From assembly GCA_035624455.1 (NCBI GenBank), contig DASPRM010000004.1, forward strand, positions 1 through 64,000: a DNA stretch of 64,000 nt. Reading direction: 5' to 3'. Positions 1,902 through 17,705 of the stretch are shown piece by piece. The notes under the pieces are model-generated. The model had not been told where the DNA came from and ran no database searches. It saw nothing but the letters and a program-made list of their open reading frames with translations. Numbering within the stretch: the stretch's first letter is position 1; every line of letters begins with the position of its first letter. Both the position numbers and the translations under genes were made by a program. Source of the DNA: Terriglobales bacterium (GTDB lineage Bacteria; Acidobacteriota; Terriglobia; Terriglobales; Acidobacteriaceae).

Positions 1902-3833
1902 CTATTGACAATTCAATTGTCGGACCAGGGCGCCCAAATCATTGGACATCTTGGCCAGAGCCTGAGCCGCTTTCAGCGAGTCGTTGGCTCCCTGGCTGGT
2001 GCTCTTGGCGGCTTCCGCGACCCCCCCGATATTCTTGGTGATCTCGCCTGACCCCTTTGCGGCTTCCCCGACATTGCGCGCCATCTCGTTGGTGGTGGCA
2101 TTCTGTTCTTCCACCGCGCTGGCGATGGTGTTGGAGATGTCGTTGACCTGCTTGATCACCTCGCTGATCTGGCTGATCGCCACCACCGCGTTCTTGGTAT
2201 CGGCCTGAATGGCTTCGATCTTGCGGCTGATATCTTCGGTGGCCTTGGCCGTCTGCTTGGCCAGCTCTTTCACTTCGTTGGCCACTACCGCGAAGCCTTT
2301 CCCCGCCTCCCCCGCACGAGCCGCCTCGATGGTGGCATTCAGCGCCAGCAGGTTCGTCTGTTGTGCGATGGAAGTGATGACCTTGATCACCTGCCCGATT
2401 TCCGTGGAGGAATCGCCCAGCTTGGTGACGATCTGATTGGTCTCCTCCGCTACGCGCACGGCGCTGGTAGCAACCTTGGCAGACTCGTGGGCATTCTTGG
2501 CGATTTCCTTGATGCTAGCACTCATCTCTTCGCTGCCGGTTGCGACCGTCTGCAGGTTCTTGTTCACTTGCTCGGCGCTGGCCGAGACCACATTGGCTTG
2601 CGCCGAAGTCTCTTCCGCGTTCGCGCTCATCTGCTGGCTGGTGGCGGTGAGTTCTTCGGAAGCACTGGCCAGGCCCTGCGAAATCTGCTCGACTTCCTTC
2701 GCCGTTTTCACCCGTTGCGTGACGTCAGTGGCATATTTCACGACCTTAAAAGGACGGTTGTTCAGATCGAAGATTGGGTTGTACGACGCCTGAATCCAAA
2801 CCTCTTTGCCGCCCTTGCCAATGCGCTTGTACTCCGCAGCCTGATACTCCCCACGATTCAGCTTCGCCCAGAATTCCTTATAGTCGGCACTGCGTCGATA
2901 CTCCTCCTCCACAAACATGCTGTGATGCTTGCCCTTGATCTCCTCGAGCGTATAACCGAGCGCCTTGAGGAAGTTTTCATTGGCGGTGATGACCGTGCCG
3001 TCCATGTGGAACTCGATCACCGCCTGTGCCTTGTTGATGGCCGCGATCTGCCCCTGGTAGTCAGCATTCTGCAGCTTCTGCCTGGTGACATCTGTGGCAT
3101 ATTTCACGACTCTGAAAGGCCGACCCGCCTCGTCCAGGATGGGGTTGTACGACGCCTGGATCCAGACCTCTTTGCCGCCTTTGCCCAGCCGTTTGAACTC
3201 GTCAGCAACGAACTCGCCGCGATTCAACTTGGCCCAGAACTCTTTGTACTCGGGACTATGACGGTAGGCTTCTTCCACGAACATGCTGTGATGCTTGCCC
3301 TTGATCTCCTCGAGCGTGTAACTCAGAACCTGAAGGAAGTTCTGGTTGGCAGTAATGACGGTGCCATCCATCTGGAACTCAATCACCGCTTGCGATTTGG
3401 AGATGGCCGCGAGTTGCCCGTCTACGTCATTTTCGTGCAGTCTTTGCGCCGTGGCGTCCCAGCAAAATTGCATCACTTTCGACAGCCGCCGCTGCGAATC
3501 CAACATGGGGTAATAGGCCGCGTCGAGCCAGATCCTTCCGCCGTCTTTGCGCCGCGCTTTGTAACAACCGTGCTGACCAACTCCCTGCTGCAGGTTGCGC
3601 CACAACTGCTGCAATTCGGCCGTCGCGTCGAGAATTGTGGTGTATGGTTTGCCCTTGATCTCGTCCATGGTGTAGCCGGCAAGGTCAAGAAAGAGCTGAT
3701 TACTGATAAGGAAGTGGCCGTCAGCGTCGAACTCAACGTAAGGCCGGGAATTGACGAAGCACTCCAGCTTCCTTGCGCTGTCGTTTCCGTTGTCGTCTTT
3801 GTGCAATTTTCTTGCTACCGAGGTCGCTGCCAT
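1902..3833 (-). CDS. Soluble methyl-accepting chemotaxis protein with three PAS domains
   Basis: Cytoplasmic chemoreceptor of 643 aa with no transmembrane segment. Three PAS domains (about residues 25-130, 145-250 and 265-375) are followed by a methyl-accepting coiled-coil signalling domain. The hairpin tip, which contacts CheA and CheW, is recognisable from '[19 protein letters not shown]' and '[12 protein letters not shown]'. PAS2 and PAS3 are near-duplicates: both contain '[14 protein letters not shown]' and '[15 protein letters not shown]'. PAS domains of this type often bind haem or flavin, but no cofactor ligand can be assigned here. A strong AAGGAGA precedes the start. The C-terminus ends 'LNCQ' and lacks a CheR/CheB-tethering pentapeptide. 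The gene begins 12 bp after cheW ends, in one operon with cheA. Confidence 0.92.
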
Positions 3834-3844
3834 TTGCTTTCTCC

Positions 3845-4321
3845 TTAATTAGTCGCGCCCGAATTTCTGCTGCGAATTTGCCGGACCACCCCCTCGCGAT
3901 CCCCCACCGCCCGTTCCGTGTCCAGGACCAACATGAGCCGGTCCTGAAGCTTGTACACGCCCCGTACCAGGTCCTGAGCCGGTCCCTGCAATGTTTCCGG
4001 AGGACGCTCGAAGGTCTGCTCGTCGACTTCCAGCACGTCTCCGATTTCATCGACAAGGAAACTGACGGCACCGTCTTCCGTGCGCACCACGACGTTCATG
4101 GGCAGCGACGATTCCGGACGGTCCACTATTCCGAAGCGCCGGCGCAGATCAATAGCCATAACGATCTGCCCGCGCAGATTGATCAACCCCCGTATCACCG
4201 CCGGGACCAGCGGCACGCGCGTCATCTCCTGATACCGGATCACCTCCTGCACCTGTTGCACGGGCACGCCAAAGAACTGGTCTTGCAGGAAAAATGTGCA
4301 GAATTGCTGGTTGTTCGCCAT
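3845..4321 (-). CDS. cheW: CheW coupling protein
   Basis: Scaffold protein that links chemoreceptors to the CheA kinase; 158 aa, about the usual family length. The single CheW domain spans nearly the whole protein, with typical elements '[15 protein letters not shown]' (about residues 16-30), '[20 protein letters not shown]' and '[16 protein letters not shown]'. GAGGAAGG lies just upstream of the ATG. The gene starts 13 bp after the cheA stop and is followed 12 bp later by the receptor gene, so the three are probably co-transcribed and form the core signalling array. Confidence 0.94.
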
Positions 4322-11547: not shown

Positions 11548-12228
11548 CTACACGGTGGGGGCCGATTCCAATGTGGAGCGCCGCTTCAGCAGGAATTGCT
11601 CAAATTCTGTAATGCCCTGCCCGGTGCGCACAGACACTTTCAGAACCGGCATGCCGGGGCGCACCAGTTGAATGTTCTGGATCAGCGCGTCGAGATCGAA
11701 GCCCAGCACATCAGTCAGATCCAGCTTGGTCACCAACGCTGCATCCGCGGTGTTAAAAATTGTCGGATACTTGAGCGGCTTGTCCTCACCTTCCGGAGTA
11801 GAAACGAGGACTATGCGCAGGTTTTCGCCCAGATCGAAGCTCGAAGGACACACCAGATTCCCAACATTCTCGATGAAAAGGAAATCGAATTCTTCCAGCG
11901 TCCAGGTTTCAACTGCTCTTTCCACCATGGTGGCATCGAGATGGCAAACCGTGCCGGTTGTGATCTGCTTTACTGGGGCACCGAAACGGGCCAAGCGGGC
12001 AGCATCATTTTCAGTCGCAAGATCCCCCACCAGGGCAGCAATCCGGTGATCACGGCCGAGGTCAGTGAGTACTCGTTCGAGGAGCGTAGTCTTGCCGGCG
12101 CCCGGACTCGAAACCAAACTAATCACCTGCACCCCGGCGCGGTGGAACCGGTCACGCAGGCGGCGGGCCACGAGATCATTCTCTTTCAGAATCTTGCGTC
12201 GAACCTCTACCATGCGTGGTTCGCTCAT
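11548..12228 (-). CDS. hypB: Hydrogenase nickel-incorporation GTPase HypB
   Basis: GTPase that drives nickel delivery to [NiFe]-hydrogenase large subunits; 226 aa. The P-loop is 'SSPGAGKTT' (about residue 40). The G-domain metal site is present as Cys-His in 'TGTVCHLDA' and Cys in 'NLVCPSSFD'; the guanine-specificity motif reads 'TKLDL' instead of NKxD. The N-terminus lacks the CxxCGC nickel motif and His-rich stretch found in some HypB proteins. Its ATG overlaps the hypA stop by 4 bp, so the pair is coupled. No hydrogenase structural gene lies in the window, so the client enzyme must be encoded elsewhere or be lost. Confidence 0.95.
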   Translation of the reverse strand: MSEPRMVEVRRKILKENDLVARRLRDRFHRAGVQVISLVSSPGAGKTTLLERVLTDLGRDHRIAALVGDLATENDAARLARFGAPVKQITTGTVCHLDATMVERAVETWTLEEFDFLFIENVGNLVCPSSFDLGENLRIVLVSTPEGEDKPLKYPTIFNTADAALVTKLDLTDVLGFDLDALIQNIQLVRPGMPVLKVSVRTGQGITEFEQFLLKRRSTLESAPTV

Positions 12229-12572
12229 CCGTCAATCTCCATTCCGGTAATTTCTAATTCCTCGCCGTGAACCACGCGCGCGGCGAGTGCCCCACATTCG
12301 GCGCATATCAATATCGGAAATGATTCGATCGGCCGCTCTGATCCGCATGCGGAACAGAGGACCACGACGTCTACATCCTCGATGATTAGCCGGGATTTTG
12401 CCAGAGGCGTCTCCTCAGATGCGACCCCATAAGAAAACAGCAGTGCATCTTTATCCACACCTGAGAGCCTGCCGAGGCGGAGGTGTATTGCGGAAGCCTG
12501 CGAAATGCCCCGGCGCTGCATCTCTTCCAGCGCGCCATCCACGATGTTTAGAGCGATCGTGAGTTCGTGCAT
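12225..12572 (-). CDS. hypA: Hydrogenase nickel chaperone HypA
   Basis: Nickel metallochaperone that works with HypB; 115 aa, the usual length. The start is placed at ATG 12572 because this yields Met-His-Glu, and HypA binds nickel through His2; an in-frame GTG two codons upstream would bury that His. The zinc site is formed by 'CSAC' (about residue 73) and 'CAEC' (about residue 91). The gene lies directly downstream of a 35-codon ORF and a degraded hydrogenase maturation protease, all on the minus strand, suggesting a partly decayed hydrogenase-maturation operon. Confidence 0.94.
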   Translation of the reverse strand: MHELTIALNIVDGALEEMQRRGISQASAIHLRLGRLSGVDKDALLFSYGVASEETPLAKSRLIIEDVDVVVLCSACGSERPIESFPILICAECGALAARVVHGEELEITGMEIDG

Positions 12573-12581
12573 CCGCACGCC

Positions 12582-12689
12582 CTACATTGCTTTCATCCTG
12601 GTGTAGCGTTTGTCGCCGCGGAAATACACTAACGAATAAATAAGGGCAGCAAGACTGCCCCACTTCATCAACTTGCCTATAGCTGACAT
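12582..12689 (-). CDS. Putative 35-aa single-span membrane protein upstream of hypA
   Basis: A short open frame with an ATG at 12689 and GGAGAAAG at good spacing before it. The product is one predicted membrane helix ('WGSLAALIYSLVYF', about residues 10-23) followed by a basic tail 'RGDKRYTRMKAM'. The stop lies 9 bp before the hypA start, giving operon-like spacing. From memory, small proteins with a helix plus a 'KRY..(I/M)K.M'-like tail (DUF6893 type) occur next to hydrogenase maturation genes. The resemblance is by eye only and the sequence is short, so it may be coincidence. Confidence 0.5.
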   Translation of the reverse strand: MSAIGKLMKWGSLAALIYSLVYFRGDKRYTRMKAM

Positions 12690-12701
12690 TGCTTTCTCCG
12701 G

Positions 12702-12960
12702 CTATGCCGGAGTTGCTCCTGTGCGGAAACGAATAATCATTTCCTCGATCACTATTCTCGCACCGTTCGGGCTCATCGTGTACTGCGTTCCGGGTTCGCC
12801 AACGCGGGGCAGCGCATCCACCAAAATCACCAGGCCCAGTGCTCCATGAGCGCGTACGCCAGGTCGCGCCGCGCGGTGATGAGCCAGCCATTTCCGTCCG
12901 GGTCCGTCAACGTGGCGAACGAGCGGTAGCGCGTGACCGGGCCTGGATGGCTGCCTCCAG
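12702..12960 (-). pseudogene. Chimeric relic: glyoxalase-like C-terminus joined to a frameshifted hydrogenase maturation protease
   Basis: No intact gene fits here, but two family signatures are readable on the minus strand. From about 12960 to 12875 the frame reads 'RYRSFATLTDPDGNGWLI', the usual C-terminal strand of glyoxalase/VOC proteins. It runs in frame into 'DLAYALMEH' (about 12866-12840). A shift to another frame then gives 'LVILVDALPRVGEPGTQY' and ends at a TAG at 12702. 'DLAYAL...LVILVDA.PR.G.PGT' is the core of HycI/HoxW-type hydrogenase maturation endopeptidases. The N-terminal metal-binding region is missing. This is best read as remains of a maturation protease next to hypA, partly deleted and fused to a glyoxalase remnant. 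Confidence 0.6.
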
Positions 12961-13005
12961 CGCTGCGTGGTAACGACCGTCGCGTTTCGACCATCGCATT
13001 GCGGA

Positions 13006-13464
13006 TCAAGCTACCTGTGTGGCGCCTCCGCTGTCGATCAAATTGGTCACAACGTTGATGTTGCCGTGGGTGGCTTTGGAATATGGACACTCCAAGTGTG
13101 CTCCCTCCACGAGTTTCTGGGCAACTTCGCGGTCTATACCTGGCAGGCTTACATTGAGACGAGCCTGAATGAAATAACCACCATTGGTTGTGCCCAAGTC
13201 CACTTCGGCGTCAACGGCAGCATCCACTGGCAGCCTGACTTTCATTCTGCCGGCGACGATCTTTATAGCCGACAGATAGCACGCTGACCAACCCACAGCG
13301 AACAACTGCTCTGGATTCGTACCGGTGCCGTGGGTTCCGGGAACCGAAAGCCTGACATCCAAGTGGCCGTCGGAGGTGCGCGATGCTCCTCCCTCCCGGC
13401 CACCTGTCGTGTGCGCTTTGGCGGTATAGAGAATTTTGTCGATGGGGGTTATGCCCTGTGTCAT
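13006..13464 (-). CDS. ohr: Organic hydroperoxide resistance protein (Ohr/OsmC family)
   Basis: Thiol peroxidase that reduces organic hydroperoxides, usually with lipoylated partners, in the cytoplasm; 152 aa. The two reactive cysteines are present: the peroxidatic Cys in 'VGWSACYLSAI' (about residue 61) and the resolving Cys in 'HLECPYSKATHGN' (about residue 125). The N-terminal 'ILYTAKAHTTGGREGGASRT' is typical of Ohr rather than OsmC. No OhrR-type regulator is adjacent. It is followed on the same strand by the glyoxalase/maturation-protease relic. Confidence 0.93.
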   Translation of the reverse strand: MTQGITPIDKILYTAKAHTTGGREGGASRTSDGHLDVRLSVPGTHGTGTNPEQLFAVGWSACYLSAIKIVAGRMKVRLPVDAAVDAEVDLGTTNGGYFIQARLNVSLPGIDREVAQKLVEGAHLECPYSKATHGNINVVTNLIDSGGATQVA

Positions 13465-13672: not shown

Positions 13673-14485
13673 CTACACGTATGCCGACCGGAGCATCTCG
13701 GCAGCGCTTTCGTCGAGCAGTTCGCGGCGACGCAACTCTTCGAAGCGATGCAAGAGCTCCTCGACCTGCAGGCGCTGCTTGGCCGTACCACAGCAATCGA
13801 TGGTGGTTCGGCCTTCGTACATCATCACCAGGCGGTCTCCCACATTGACCGCCTGCTGCATGGAATGGGTGACCATGAGGGTGGTCAGATGGTGATGCTG
13901 GACAACCTGGCGGGTAAGGCGAATGATCTGCTCGGCGCTTTTGGGGTCGAGGGCGGCGGTGTGTTCATCGAGTAAGAGCAGCTCAGGGCGGACGAGGGTT
14001 GCCATCATCAATGTGATCGCCTGCCGCTGCCCGCCGGAAAGCAGGCCGATGGGAGTTTGGAAGCGGTCTTCCAATCCCAAACCAAGGCTGGCCAGCTGAT
14101 GGCGGAGCTCTGCGCCTGAGCGGCGGCCCAGCGCCCAGCCCAGGCCGCGAGGTTGACCGCGTCTGGAGGCAAGGGCAAGATTCTCTCCGACGGTCAAATT
14201 GGGAGCGGTCCCGCTAAATGGATTCTGGAAAACGCGGCTGATAAGCCGCGCGCGGCGGTGCTCCGGCCAATGGGTGATGTTGCGTCCGCCCAAATGGATG
14301 CTGCCGCCATCCGGCAAGACCGACCCCGCAATGGCATTCAACAAGGTGCTCTTACCCGAGCCGTTGGTTCCAATCACCACCACGAAAGAGCCGGCTTCGA
14401 TTTCCAGGCAAACGTGGTCCAATGCCAGCACGGTATTGCCGGCATCAGCCTTGAAGGTCTTGGTCACCTCACGCAGCGTGAGCAT
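13673..14485 (-). CDS. ABC transporter ATP-binding protein
   Basis: Cytoplasmic ATPase subunit, 270 aa. Walker A 'GTNGSGKST' (about residue 36), Q-loop 'RVFQNPFSGT', signature 'LLSGGQRQA', Walker B 'LLLLDEHTAALDP' and H-loop 'MVTHSM' are all intact. ATG 14485 overlaps the 3' end of the permease gene by 17 bp, which supports this start over one at 14548. It is the last gene of a substrate-binding protein/STAS/permease/ATPase operon. The family is the poorly characterised COG1101-type transporter associated with PF04392 binding proteins (some are tryptophan or tyrosine importers); the substrate here is unknown. Confidence 0.92.
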   Translation of the reverse strand: MLTLREVTKTFKADAGNTVLALDHVCLEIEAGSFVVVIGTNGSGKSTLLNAIAGSVLPDGGSIHLGGRNITHWPEHRRARLISRVFQNPFSGTAPNLTVGENLALASRRGQPRGLGWALGRRSGAELRHQLASLGLGLEDRFQTPIGLLSGGQRQAITLMMATLVRPELLLLDEHTAALDPKSAEQIIRLTRQVVQHHHLTTLMVTHSMQQAVNVGDRLVMMYEGRTTIDCCGTAKQRLQVEELLHRFEELRRRELLDESAAEMLRSAYV

Positions 14486-15413
14486 GGCGTAATTTGAGGC
14501 GTCGAATATGAAACCGACGTGTGATAGATGGCACCACCAGCGCAACAAAAACGAAGGCAGCCGTAATCAGTTTCAGGTCGTTCGGATCCAGACCCCAGCG
14601 GAGTGCGATAGCCACCATCAGCCGGAACAGCACCGATCCAATTATGGTTCCTGCTATGGTGAAAGCCAGGTTGCTGGAACTGATCAGGGCTTCGCCGATA
14701 ATGACGCTAGCCAAGCCCCAAACCACCATGCCGATTCCCATCTGCACGTCGGCGAAGCCTTGATACTGAGCGAGCATCGCCCCGGACAACCCGACCAGCC
14801 CGTTGGACAATGCCAAACCGAGAACCGTCATGTTTTCGACGCTCACCGCAAGAGCGCGGATCATCTGCGGGTTGTCGCCGGTGGCGCGCATGGCGGTGCC
14901 CAGGTTGGTGCGGAAGAAACCATAGAGTGCCAATCCGATTACGATCGCCGAGAGAAAGGCAAAAAACAGCGAGGTGGCATCGCGTAGGGCAATTTCCCAG
15001 CCCAGGATATGGACCACATGCGCAGACCATATGCGCTGGGCGGCACTCTCCCCGAGGCTCGGAAGAGTGCGGCTGGACATAAGGGGCAGATTGCTTTTGC
15101 CCATCACATGAAGATTGATGGAATAAAGAGCGGTCATGGTGAGGATTCCAGCAAGCAGTTTGTTTATACCGAAGCGCGTATGAAACAACCCCGTGGCTGT
15201 GCCCGCGAGTGCGCCCGCGACCGCGCCTGCCGCAGTGGCCCACAGAGGATTGTGTCCTTTCACGATCAGAATGGCGGCCACGGAAGCGCCGAGGGTCAGC
15301 GAACCGTCGACGGTGATATCGGGAAAAGAGAAGATCCGAAAACTGATGTAGGTGCCCAAGGCGAGAAGCGACAGGATAAGGCCGATTGTCCAGGCGCTGA
15401 CGAGTAGAGTCAT
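14469..15413 (-). CDS. ABC transporter permease (COG4120-like)
   Basis: Inner-membrane subunit of 314 aa with about eight or nine hydrophobic segments. The N-terminus ('LILSLLALGTYISFRIFSFP', then 'DITVDGSLTLGASVAAILI') and 'LFHTRFGINKLLAGILTMTA' are typical of the branched-chain-permease-like family that partners PF04392 binding proteins. The ATG overlaps the stop of the STAS gene by 4 bp, and the 3' end overlaps the ATPase start, so the three genes are translationally coupled. Substrate is not predictable from sequence; aromatic amino acids are one possibility from family precedent. Confidence 0.88.
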   Translation of the reverse strand: MTLLVSAWTIGLILSLLALGTYISFRIFSFPDITVDGSLTLGASVAAILIVKGHNPLWATAAGAVAGALAGTATGLFHTRFGINKLLAGILTMTALYSINLHVMGKSNLPLMSSRTLPSLGESAAQRIWSAHVVHILGWEIALRDATSLFFAFLSAIVIGLALYGFFRTNLGTAMRATGDNPQMIRALAVSVENMTVLGLALSNGLVGLSGAMLAQYQGFADVQMGIGMVVWGLASVIIGEALISSSNLAFTIAGTIIGSVLFRLMVAIALRWGLDPNDLKLITAAFVFVALVVPSITRRFHIRRLKLRHAHAA

Positions 15414-16645
15414 ATGTTCCCATCCGGATGAAAATTAAGCCGGCCGATCCAGCAGGCGCCGCGCACCAGCGTAGTATCACCTGCGCCGTTGATCGGACGC
15501 TGATCGTTGAGCAGATGCAGTACGGAGGTGACAACCTGCGACTGAAAGGCGTTATGCGCAGTTGCCGGCAGTTCAAGTAGTCCACGCTGGATGGGACGGT
15601 AAGGGAACAGAGCAGCATGGAAGTGGCCGCGGATAGCGCTATCGGGATCCAAGGGCCGGAGGAATGGAAGTACTTCCGGCCAGGCATCGGAGCTGACAAT
15701 GCCGGCGGCGGCGACCGTGGAACGCGTGCCAGTGATCTCCGGCGCGAATGAAATGCACTCTCTAATTTTCGGGAAGTCCAGTTCTGTGGGCACTGCTGCC
15801 GGCGAGGATCTTAAGGCGGCGCCTACAACTCTCGACGCCTCCGCAATCATGGCAATCGCAATCGTAGTTGAACCCGAGATGTTCAGAGACTGGCGGACGA
15901 TCTCGAACAGTGTCCATCGCACATCGCGCCGGGAGTCAAAACGCAAAAACTGTGTCGGCATTCCATGGCACTCGATGCCATAGAGAACGTGTATCTCGGG
16001 CACGAACTCTTCAGCGGAGACCAGGTAGTCGGGAACAGAGGCGCCATCGGTGGGAAGATGCGCACAGCATCCGCCAAGAGCAACAAATTCCCCGAATCGA
16101 CATCGGCAGTCATCATAATCCGCCCCCAGTGCCCCAATTCCGAGCGCCAGATGAGAATCGGACAATTGCCGCGTTTGGCACGTTTCTGCAGAGATGTTCC
16201 CTCTCTTGACCACACTGGGAGAGTTGATGAGCCGGCACTCCATTCGTGCCGTGGGAGACAAGTTATAGACCTCAACCGTGCCACATTCCGTCTCTATGGT
16301 ATTGTTGGGTGCAGTTGTCGCGGAGGCAGCGATCGCCTGCTTGCCATCGCCGAACAAGATGGGCTCCAGCGCAACCAGCTTTAGGGTTGAGCGGACACGC
16401 TCGGAGGCTTTATCGATTACGAAGGTTCCGTGGATGGCTCGGAGTTGCCGGTAGACGCGCATCAAAATGCCAATACCTGCGGAACTGAGGAAATTAACGT
16501 CGGAGAGATCGAGGCGAAGATGGAGGGCGCCGTCGTTTACGGCAGTGTTGAGTCTTTGAGCAAGGAACTCGGACCAATAATTGTCCAACCGTCCCTTGAT
16601 GCTCAGCTCGAGCACATCACCGCGCTGTTGCTCGCTGATTTGCAT
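15410..16645 (-). CDS. STAS-domain protein with a large uncharacterised C-terminal domain
   Basis: Protein of 411 aa. Residues about 1-105 form a STAS domain like anti-sigma-factor antagonists: 'ISEQQRGDVLELSIKGRLD' then 'LDLSDVNFLSSAGIGILMRV', the latter containing the Ser that is phosphorylated in SpoIIAA-type proteins. The remaining 300 residues match no domain I can name with confidence; notable stretches are 'FGEFVALGGCCAHLPTDG', 'GHFHAALFPYRPIQRG' and 'VLHLLNDQRPI'. ATG 16645 follows GGGGAG. The gene overlaps the binding-protein gene by about 30 bp and the permease by 4 bp, so it probably regulates this transporter or reports its substrate. Not an obvious membrane protein. Confidence 0.75.
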   Translation of the reverse strand: MQISEQQRGDVLELSIKGRLDNYWSEFLAQRLNTAVNDGALHLRLDLSDVNFLSSAGIGILMRVYRQLRAIHGTFVIDKASERVRSTLKLVALEPILFGDGKQAIAASATTAPNNTIETECGTVEVYNLSPTARMECRLINSPSVVKRGNISAETCQTRQLSDSHLALGIGALGADYDDCRCRFGEFVALGGCCAHLPTDGASVPDYLVSAEEFVPEIHVLYGIECHGMPTQFLRFDSRRDVRWTLFEIVRQSLNISGSTTIAIAMIAEASRVVGAALRSSPAAVPTELDFPKIRECISFAPEITGTRSTVAAAGIVSSDAWPEVLPFLRPLDPDSAIRGHFHAALFPYRPIQRGLLELPATAHNAFQSQVVTSVLHLLNDQRPINGAGDTTLVRGACWIGRLNFHPDGNI

Positions 16646-17705
16646 CTGTCTCCCCAAGAACTTCGTTTGCGGAGCGCACTAACGCCGGCGGTAGTTGCAG
16701 ATCCAGTTCGCGTGCGGCATTGAGGTTGAGGACCACCGAGGTCTTGGTGAACCACTCCAGTGGAATATGGGCGGGATCTTCACCTCTCATGATGCGTACC
16801 GCCAGGGCAGCGGATTGGCGGCCTGCACCCGCGAAGTCCCGTGCCAACACGACCAGGGCCCCATCATTTGCTTGCTGTCGTTGAAAAGCAAAAACCGGCA
16901 ACTTCGCCCGGATGGCCGCCTGGTTGATGCTTCCGAAAGCGGATGCAGTCAAATTACCGGGAATCTGGCAAATGGCGTCGATGTGACGACTGGTCAGGGC
17001 AGCCGCGGCGTCTGGAATTTCGGTTGCGGTGCTCACCGGAACTGAAACCACTTTAATTTCTCGCGGATGAGCTGCTTTTTGCAGCTGGTTCAGCATATAC
17101 ACCATATTCACTTCCGAGGGAACGAAAAGCGTCCCCACTCGTTTTACCCGCGGGAACCAGGTGCGAATCAAAGCCACCATGTCTTCACTCGGCGGCGTGA
17201 GATTGACGCCAGTAAGGTTGGGCAGATGATCGGTCTCGCTTCGCCCGGCCCCGGCGATCAGACCATTTGCCACGTAGGTGAACACGATGGGCAAGGATGG
17301 AGCGCGTTGGATTGCTGCCTGTAATGTGGGGGTGGAAAATGTTATCAGCATATCGGCGCCGCCCGTCACGGCCGCATCGATCATCGCGCTGACGGTGGCC
17401 ATGTCTCCCTGCGCGTTCAGAATCTGAGTTACATAGTCATGTCCTTCTTTCAGCCCGGAATCGCGCAGCCCATCGAGTACGCCCCGTTCAGACTCTTTGA
17501 CGTCCAGCACGTCGTTGTACTCGATTAGATAAAGCTTCCACCTCTTTTTGTTGAGGGCGTTGTGGGCATTGTGGGAATCGTTGCTGCCCGGTTTTCGCCG
17601 GTCAAGATCGGAAAGCAGGAGAACGCTGGAGGCCAGGACGATCAGAACCGAAGCAAGCGCGAGGCTTTTGATGCTCCTCCACAACTGGTCACCCCCTAAA
17701 GCCAA
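16617..17705 (-). CDS. ABC transporter substrate-binding protein (PF04392-like)
   Basis: Extracytoplasmic binding protein, up to 362 aa, with an N-terminal hydrophobic export or anchor segment ('SLALASVLIVLASSVLLL'). The two-lobe fold is recognisable from 'VLDGLRDSGLKEGHDYV', 'GADMLITFSTPTLQAAI', 'PIVFTYVANGLIAGAG' and 'NLTGVNL', typical of ABC_sub_bind proteins such as the tryptophan-binding TrpX. No ATG starts the frame; TTG codons at 17705 and 17684 are candidates, and the latter has AGGGGG seven bases upstream and is my preference. It is the first gene of the four-gene operon reaching 13673. Confidence 0.87.
   Translation of the reverse strand: MALGGDQLWRSIKSLALASVLIVLASSVLLLSDLDRRKPGSNDSHNAHNALNKKRWKLYLIEYNDVLDVKESERGVLDGLRDSGLKEGHDYVTQILNAQGDMATVSAMIDAAVTGGADMLITFSTPTLQAAIQRAPSLPIVFTYVANGLIAGAGRSETDHLPNLTGVNLTPPSEDMVALIRTWFPRVKRVGTLFVPSEVNMVYMLNQLQKAAHPREIKVVSVPVSTATEIPDAAAALTSRHIDAICQIPGNLTASAFGSINQAAIRAKLPVFAFQRQQANDGALVVLARDFAGAGRQSAALAVRIMRGEDPAHIPLEWFTKTSVVLNLNAARELDLQLPPALVRSANEVLGETDANQRATAR

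Follow-up and report, generated by a model that had tools for sequence, protein, structure and literature searches.

A STAS protein with a modelled ALDC/PTD012-fold domain accompanies a TrpX-type ABC importer in a Terriglobales bacterium

In a 64,000-nucleotide stretch of DNA from a Terriglobales bacterium (contig DASPRM010000004.1; the window, below, is this whole stretch), the operon of a TrpX-type ATP-binding cassette (ABC) importer includes a gene for a 411-residue protein that joins a STAS domain to a C-terminal domain in which a confident structural model places the fold of acetolactate decarboxylase (ALDC) and PTD012. We tentatively favor the view, which we give slightly less than an even chance, that the protein is an accessory subunit of the importer: its STAS domain would dock on the ATPase, Ser55 would be the site of phospho-control, and the C-terminal domain would carry out a metal-dependent reaction at the importer. 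A regulatory or accessory subunit had also been proposed in the sequence-only reading, an earlier account of this DNA made from its letters, and recurrence of the unit, a C-terminal domain found in no other setting, a distinctive ATPase tail and, in some relatives, neighboring RsbW-type kinase and SpoIIE phosphatase genes make such a subunit, linked to a phospho-switch, the best reading of the protein.

The four genes lie on the minus strand in the order substrate-binding protein (SBP), STAS protein, permease and ATPase. The TrpX-like SBP (16617..17705; 362 aa from a TTG) matches PF04392 (Pfam, 1.7e-46). The gene for the STAS protein (15410..16645; 411 aa plus stop) begins with an ATG at 16645 and is followed by those for the permease (14469..15413; 314 aa), which matches PF02653 (5.1e-29), and the ATPase (13673..14485; 270 aa plus stop, ATG at 14485), which matches PF00005 (3.5e-28). 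Successive genes overlap by 29, 4 and 17 bp, in agreement with the overlaps of about 30, 4 and 17 bp noticed earlier. A PF04392 SBP, a PF02653 permease and an ABC ATPase encoded together are the families of a TrpX-type ABC importer.

This arrangement recurs. Matches to the STAS protein are present in 264 of 396 Acidobacteriota genomes, mostly to the STAS domain only; full-length relatives occur in 10 other genomes of the 396 at 35–45% identity (the copy in G188 is broken after residue 356), together with two remote copies (21 and 25% identity) in two of these 10 genomes and one more piece cut by a contig end. Scanning GTDB genomes with the alignment as query gave 27 loci, 22 of them new and mostly from Acidobacteriota; the other metagenome-assembled genomes are labelled Deltaproteobacteria, Desulfobacterota, Proteobacteria, Planctomycetota, Nitrospirae and Bacteroidia, and mis-binning is possible. 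The GTDB scan with a single protein as query confirmed zero relatives, and none was confirmed on viral contigs (queried with the C-terminal part) or on plasmids. Five of the GTDB loci (L047, L059, L061, L062 and L064) lie on contigs already counted for the phylum; without them, 13 phylum and 22 GTDB loci gave 35 non-redundant relatives, the window apart. The permease gene comes next in all 32 loci with room for it on the contig, the ATPase gene follows in 30 of 30 with room, and 30 of the 34 loci with room have an SBP gene immediately ahead of the STAS gene; two of the remaining four carry the SBP fused to the permease. Given a conserved protein and a gene order repeated over 35 loci, the observation is not one of chance, and the question raised earlier, whether the gene set recurs as a unit, is answered in the affirmative.

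For 32 of the proteins (the window, 12 phylum and 19 GTDB sequences; L044 and L070 were omitted as cut, L052 for a run of N and L066 as split) identity across the alignment is 32–43%, with two remote members at 19–21%. Pairwise distances for the STAS protein, permease and ATPase correlate at 0.90–0.93, and correlations involving the SBP are 0.69–0.72. These values, from 23 of the 35 loci (L038, L051, L052, L053, L057, L058, L066, L067 and four loci missing a gene were dropped), fit a core that has been inherited together and do not by themselves imply contact.

Several loci vary the SBP gene. In both remote copies the permease reading frame runs on into SBP domains: two ABC_sub_bind domains in L042 (5244-8117, minus strand; 957 aa) and one in L043 (6456-8588, minus strand; 710 aa). 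Elsewhere a reading frame upstream of the STAS gene holds two SBP domains (L033, L034, L037, L038, L040, L041 and L044) or three (L055), perhaps giving one importer binding domains of different affinity or specificity. An apparent fusion of STAS and permease genes in L052 was rejected because its reading frame crosses a run of N.

The association is close when approached from either partner. A permease search of the 396 phylum genomes (E up to 1e-30) returned 16 places in 14 genomes. A STAS gene lies upstream at 13 of the 14 places with at least 48% identity, and the one remaining place (G330) has its permease gene cut off by the end of the contig; the two places at 32–37% identity are without a STAS gene. 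The window permease is 58–66% identical to the permeases of 11 other genomes and is absent from all of the at least 42 other genomes listed for the window's own family, so that its presence in the window is sporadic. A profile of the C-terminal domain, applied to 297 phylum genomes, found 13 places in 11 genomes, and all 13 are STAS fusions. Both searches score only the best first-look candidates per genome, and very distant copies could escape them. Because the C-terminal domain was seen only fused to STAS and beside this permease, it appears to be dedicated to this importer.

No sequence family accounts for this domain. Beyond residue 96 the STAS protein has no Pfam match at E up to 1. Among the 13 first-aligned members, Pfam recognizes STAS in all and otherwise returns two matches, in one member each, that were set aside at chance level (E 0.23); NCBIfam gives STAS-type models plus two matches at E 0.19, again in one member each. 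With a threshold of E 1, none of the 13 members matches PF03306 (ALDC), and neither they nor the window protein match PF08925 (DUF1907, PTD012); PHROGs has no match for the window's C-terminal domain at E up to 0.1. The window's own genome yielded no PF03306 ALDC. A PF08925 search of the 297 genomes was likewise without a match but is uninformative, since 14 control genomes had none either. The description of some 300 residues belonging to no known family therefore stands for sequence families but not for the fold, which is a known one. The outcome that the sequence-only reading had named as telling against it was a C-terminal domain from a well-known, unrelated enzyme family in an unconserved operon; what we find is no family match and a conserved unit.

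The full-length protein was modelled at a pLDDT of 85.4, and the C-terminal domain alone (residues 113–411; 15413..16309, minus strand), modelled with 32 sequences, at a pLDDT of 92.7 and a pTM of 0.92. In a VIA-align comparison of the domain model, in which 989 chains were aligned, ALDCs rank first (6j92_A, Z 18.1 over 203 residues at 2.9 Å and 13% identity; 10–14% over the ALDC structures), human PTD012 second (1xcr, Z 14.9 over 234 residues at 4.3 Å) and PPC/AF0104-type proteins third (Z 8.3–10.5), and the next row, outside the fold group, falls to Z 3.8. Foldseek places PTD012 best (E 3.9e-6), with the top ALDC at 2.3e-5. The model thus assigns the domain the ALDC/PTD012 fold, within the ALDC/PTD012/AF0104-like group.

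A putative metal site is conserved on this fold. Five aligned ALDCs share invariant Gly-Glu, Arg, HxH and GGH motifs. Gly185-Glu186 is invariant in the 32 aligned STAS proteins; Glu186 (16088..16090), the proposed counterpart of the ALDC Gly-Glu, is in register with it in an hhalign overlap that is itself insignificant. Arg279 (15809..15811) is proposed, from mapping by motif, to correspond to the ALDC Arg that precedes a Pro by three residues; 25 of the 32 proteins have Arg at this position and 3 have Lys. The putative metal ligands His341-Phe-His343 (15617..15625), corresponding to the HxH of the five ALDCs, have His at both positions in all 32 and lie on a single strand of the model. His377 (15515..15517), the putative third ligand, is kept in 31 of 31 rows having a letter and sits on the next strand, a helix lying between the two. 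From the strand order of the model, His341, His343 and His377 may together bind a metal, and the His and Glu site is retained even in members at 19–21% identity.

Excerpts of a commentary (PMC12435205) describe PTD012 as a beta-keto-L-gulonate decarboxylase, structurally related to ALDC, in which three His hold the zinc, and the natural first guess for the C-terminal domain is therefore decarboxylation of a keto or hydroxy acid. Owing to the modelled fold and its conserved putative metal site, we consider an enzymatic function no less likely than pure sensing, and in this respect we depart from the accessory subunit as first proposed. Two further proteins, L089 (1384-2052, plus strand) and L090 (1468-2304, minus strand), score 39.9 and 26.2 bits against a PF03306 cut-off of 25; their frames start with a hydrophobic stretch and contain the motifs GE, HxH and GH, and this ALDC-like group may be exported.

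The ALDC-fold domain might instead be no enzyme, binding imported substrate or metal and throttling the ATPase through the STAS domain. Some ABC ATPases, MetN and ModC among them, carry regulatory C-terminal domains. Operon conservation and the ATPase tail described below would fit such a docked regulator equally; no stand-alone enzyme with this domain turned up in the 297 genomes, and conservation of the residue proposed to match the ALDC Arg is not strict. Against a regulator of this kind, retention of the His/Glu site down to 19–21% identity fits a working metal center; we consider this reading unlikely, though well worth keeping in view.

The STAS domain (residues 1–100; 16346..16645, minus strand) matches PF01740 over residues 5–96 (4.4e-13) and has structural matches to RsbV, SpoIIAA, RsbS and MlaB; against MlaB chains, the STAS part of the model gives Z 11.1–12.5. 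Its best NCBIfam models are of the anti-sigma antagonist type, with TIGR00377 at E 1.2e-13 and 50.9 bits, slightly below the 53.45 cut-off, and the NCBIfam mlaB model, at 19.7 bits, does not reach its cut-off of 90. The Ser of anti-sigma antagonists, reported before as retained, is Ser55 (16481..16483, in LSSAG), a putative phosphorylation site that is Ser in 32 of 32 aligned proteins. We take its register to be that of Bacillus subtilis SpoIIAA Ser58, the anti-sigma-antagonist Ser, and infer that it is equivalent to MlaB Thr52. The window's own genome has one further STAS match, which is weak (E 1.4e-4) and STAS-only.

In canonical partner switching, as set out in excerpts of PMC8256260, a kinase phosphorylates the STAS Ser and a phosphatase restores it. 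With a profile built from four linked kinases, an RsbW-type kinase was found within 1.5 kb of the operon in 6 of the 35 loci and at 2.0 and 4.2 kb in two more, 8 of 35 in all. The kinase gene lies upstream in L046, L050 and L056, in the same direction and behind a Cache-HAMP-SpoIIE phosphatase gene; in L046 and L056 a small STAS gene separates it from the SBP gene. Kinase and small STAS genes stand just downstream in the opposite direction in L054 and L055, the latter also having a GAF-SpoIIE phosphatase, and L053 has a kinase-STAS fusion with a GAF-SpoIIE phosphatase further off; the L048 kinase is truncated by the contig end. The window's genome and those of the eight hosts, about 43 Mb together, hold 15 PF13581 matches above 70 bits, giving a chance expectation of about 0.03 in the 83 kb of close flank. 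Five of the six kinases within 1.5 kb exceed this score, the sixth being that of L048, and the linked kinase is the best PF13581 match by position in 7 of 8 host genomes. For part of the family a phospho-switch is well supported by this linkage; in the window's own system, whose genome has three PF13581 kinase matches above 70 bits, all elsewhere, it is only possible. As a further feature of L056, an NMT1/THI5-like binding protein gene (3260-4243, plus strand) comes just before the SpoIIE phosphatase and kinase genes.

The same linkage bears on a reading in which the output is transcription, the STAS-ALDC protein being an anti-sigma antagonist and the importer merely a co-transcribed sensor input. 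In its favor, 8 of the 35 loci have a kinase in the neighborhood, and the STAS domain matches anti-sigma antagonist models (TIGR00377) best, but five of the eight kinase loci (L046, L053–L056) have a small STAS of their own, fused to the kinase in L053, that could serve instead. The available flanks of the other 27 loci contain no kinase, and the STAS protein accompanies this particular permease and an ATPase with its own tail. We regard a sigma-factor output as improbable.

That tail, the last 25 residues of the ATPase (13676..13750, minus strand), has a form that we saw in no ATPase outside the STAS-linked group. Its approximate consensus is FEEVRRxEQLDESAAEMLRRxYV, with Tyr-Val/Ile at the end. 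In the numbering of the alignment query (that of the 270-aa protein plus 1), Arg253, Leu266 and Tyr270 are present in 30 of 30 STAS-linked ATPases, including that of L091, whose STAS gene would lie off the contig, as against 2, 7 and 0 of 10 STAS-less ATPases, whose ends are shorter; Phe249 is common to both sets. The STAS-less set consists of ATPases from plasmid operons, 49–55% identical and with no STAS match within about 4 kb, and covers 10 of the 78 plasmid records that matched the ATPase. Excluded from the alignment were the ATPases of L048 and L057, both cut, and those of L092 and L093, two loci without STAS. The simpler idea that STAS-less ATPases lack a tail was rejected, as they carry a shorter end piece of other sequence. 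According to excerpts of PMC7367683, Escherichia coli MlaB binds the ATPase MlaF, whose C-terminal extension puts Tyr and Leu residues into the interface. By analogy, the tail looks like what a STAS-docking tail could be.

A tail of this kind, the invariant STAS Ser and the near-constant position of the gene just before that of the permease all speak against a co-transcribed cytoplasmic enzyme without importer contact, in which STAS would be a mere dimerisation or folding module. Enzymes often share an operon with the importer of their substrate, and this common arrangement, with the ALDC fold and conserved site, is what such a reading has in its favor. We judge it very improbable.

Several observations weigh against the favored reading, that of an accessory subunit docked through STAS, controlled at Ser55 and catalytically active. 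Mean conservation of the STAS-linked tail is 0.72 vs 0.76 for the rest of the ATPase (0.53 vs 0.66 in the STAS-less ATPases), and the tail may simply mark a clade, given how closely the STAS-linked ATPases resemble one another by descent. A gene looks broken or split in four loci, that of the STAS protein in L038 and L066 and that of the ATPase in L051 and L053. Position 279 is without a basic residue in 4 of 32 proteins. Sequence homology of the C-terminal domain with ALDC was rejected, its profile giving insignificant hhalign values (E 0.1–0.59) against one ALDC, five ALDCs, and four ALDCs with two ALDC-like proteins; its kinship is consequently a fold relation, resting on fold and motif order. 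The 27 relatives without a kinase, some of which have short flanks, count here as well, and the window contains no kinase, phosphatase or second STAS gene. The link to a phosphorelay suggested in the sequence-only reading is accordingly supported for some relatives, in which RsbW-type kinases and SpoIIE phosphatases adjoin the operon, and only possible for the window.

As we picture the preferred mechanism, the 411-residue protein would be a cytoplasmic accessory subunit whose STAS domain docks on the ATPase as MlaB does on MlaF, the ATPase tail helping to hold it. The STAS-ATPase contact would be loosened when an RsbW-type kinase phosphorylates Ser55 and re-established by a SpoIIE phosphatase carrying a Cache or GAF sensor, so that transport would be gated by a partner switch; the invariant Ser and the switch genes beside the operon in some relatives lead us to propose this gating. 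Given the modelled fold, the C-terminal domain would perform a metal-dependent reaction on the cytoplasmic side, probably decarboxylating a keto or hydroxy acid brought in by the importer. In its fullest form, a phospho-gated, enzyme-coupled importer in which STAS bolts a metal-dependent decarboxylase to the ATPase and the RsbW/SpoIIE sensor switch attaches or releases the subunit that bears it, with transport as the output, the scheme is a doubtful one. If it were true, the imported acid would be converted while emerging, pulling uptake forward, and transport rather than a sigma factor would be the output of partner switching. Together with the candidate tail and the invariant Ser, the kinase and phosphatase genes that adjoin the operon in some genomes make partner-switch control of a transporter directly testable.

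As to the importer itself, the SBP scores 148.7 bits against the NCBIfam TrpX equivalog NF041285, far below the cut-off of 390, and has 3lkv, 6hni and 3lft as relatives in the PDB. By sequence it is nearest to TrpX-type proteins and falls outside the tryptophan-specific equivalog. Its N-terminus is a hydrophobic segment in which inspection by eye found no lipobox. Neighbor-gene clustering and Pfam analysis of 40 chosen genes revealed no recurring linked metabolic enzyme and hence no substrate clue. Two STAS-less TrpXYZ-like operons on Burkholderiaceae plasmids (L100 and L101) lie beside UbiD/UbiX decarboxylase genes and also adjoin genes for a thiamine-pyrophosphate enzyme and an FAD oxidoreductase; this neighborhood may hint at what importers of the wider class carry. 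Promoter and terminator scans gave nothing above chance. Downstream on the same strand (window 11548-13464) are HypA-like, HypB/CobW-like and OsmC-like genes, for which no tie to the importer was seen.

In the papers searched, for STAS with such importers, with partner switching or with ALDC, we found nothing on this system, and none names both acetolactate decarboxylase and a STAS domain. The closest known relative in organization is MlaFEDB, in which a STAS protein is likewise encoded with an ABC ATPase and whose MlaB chains match the STAS part of our model. In contrast to that MCE lipid system, the operon described here combines a PF04392 SBP with a PF02653 permease, which matches no other Pfam family over cut-off and is not of the lipid (MlaE) type; its STAS domain is fused to a 300-residue ALDC-fold domain, and the mlaB equivalog cut-off is missed. 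MlaB on MlaF is the only STAS-ABC pair of solved structure that we encountered; excerpts of PMC7367683 state that no other PDB entry had both STAS and ABC domains at publication, and its authors consider that other ABC transporters might be controlled in a similar way. With ALDC (PF03306) the C-terminal domain shares the fold and the order of Gly-Glu, Arg, HxH and third His, but it has no PF03306 match, a helix separates HxH from the third His, and it occurs fused to STAS and was not found stand-alone in the 297 genomes. PTD012/C11orf54, the best Foldseek match, has the same fold and, in excerpts of PMC12435205, a three-His zinc site; there it is mostly a stand-alone enzyme in vertebrates, whereas here the domain is a STAS fusion without a PF08925 match. 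The RsbU-RsbV-RsbW and SpoIIE-SpoIIAA-SpoIIAB systems resemble this one in a STAS domain with a conserved Ser and, for some relatives, in switch genes adjoining the operon; unlike theirs, this STAS domain belongs to an ABC operon and is joined to a domain with an enzyme fold, and the window has no switch module. TrpXYZ-type importers have the same SBP, permease and ATPase families, but the ten STAS-less plasmid relatives lack both the STAS gene and this ATPase tail. We file the system as a variant of the STAS-accompanied ABC transporters that lies outside the MlaB, lipid-permease and ALDC families by the respective tests. The family adds a dedicated branch to the ALDC/PTD012 fold group, and it looks like an independent case of a STAS-ABC pairing, in a nutrient importer, with a candidate tail and an invariant Ser.

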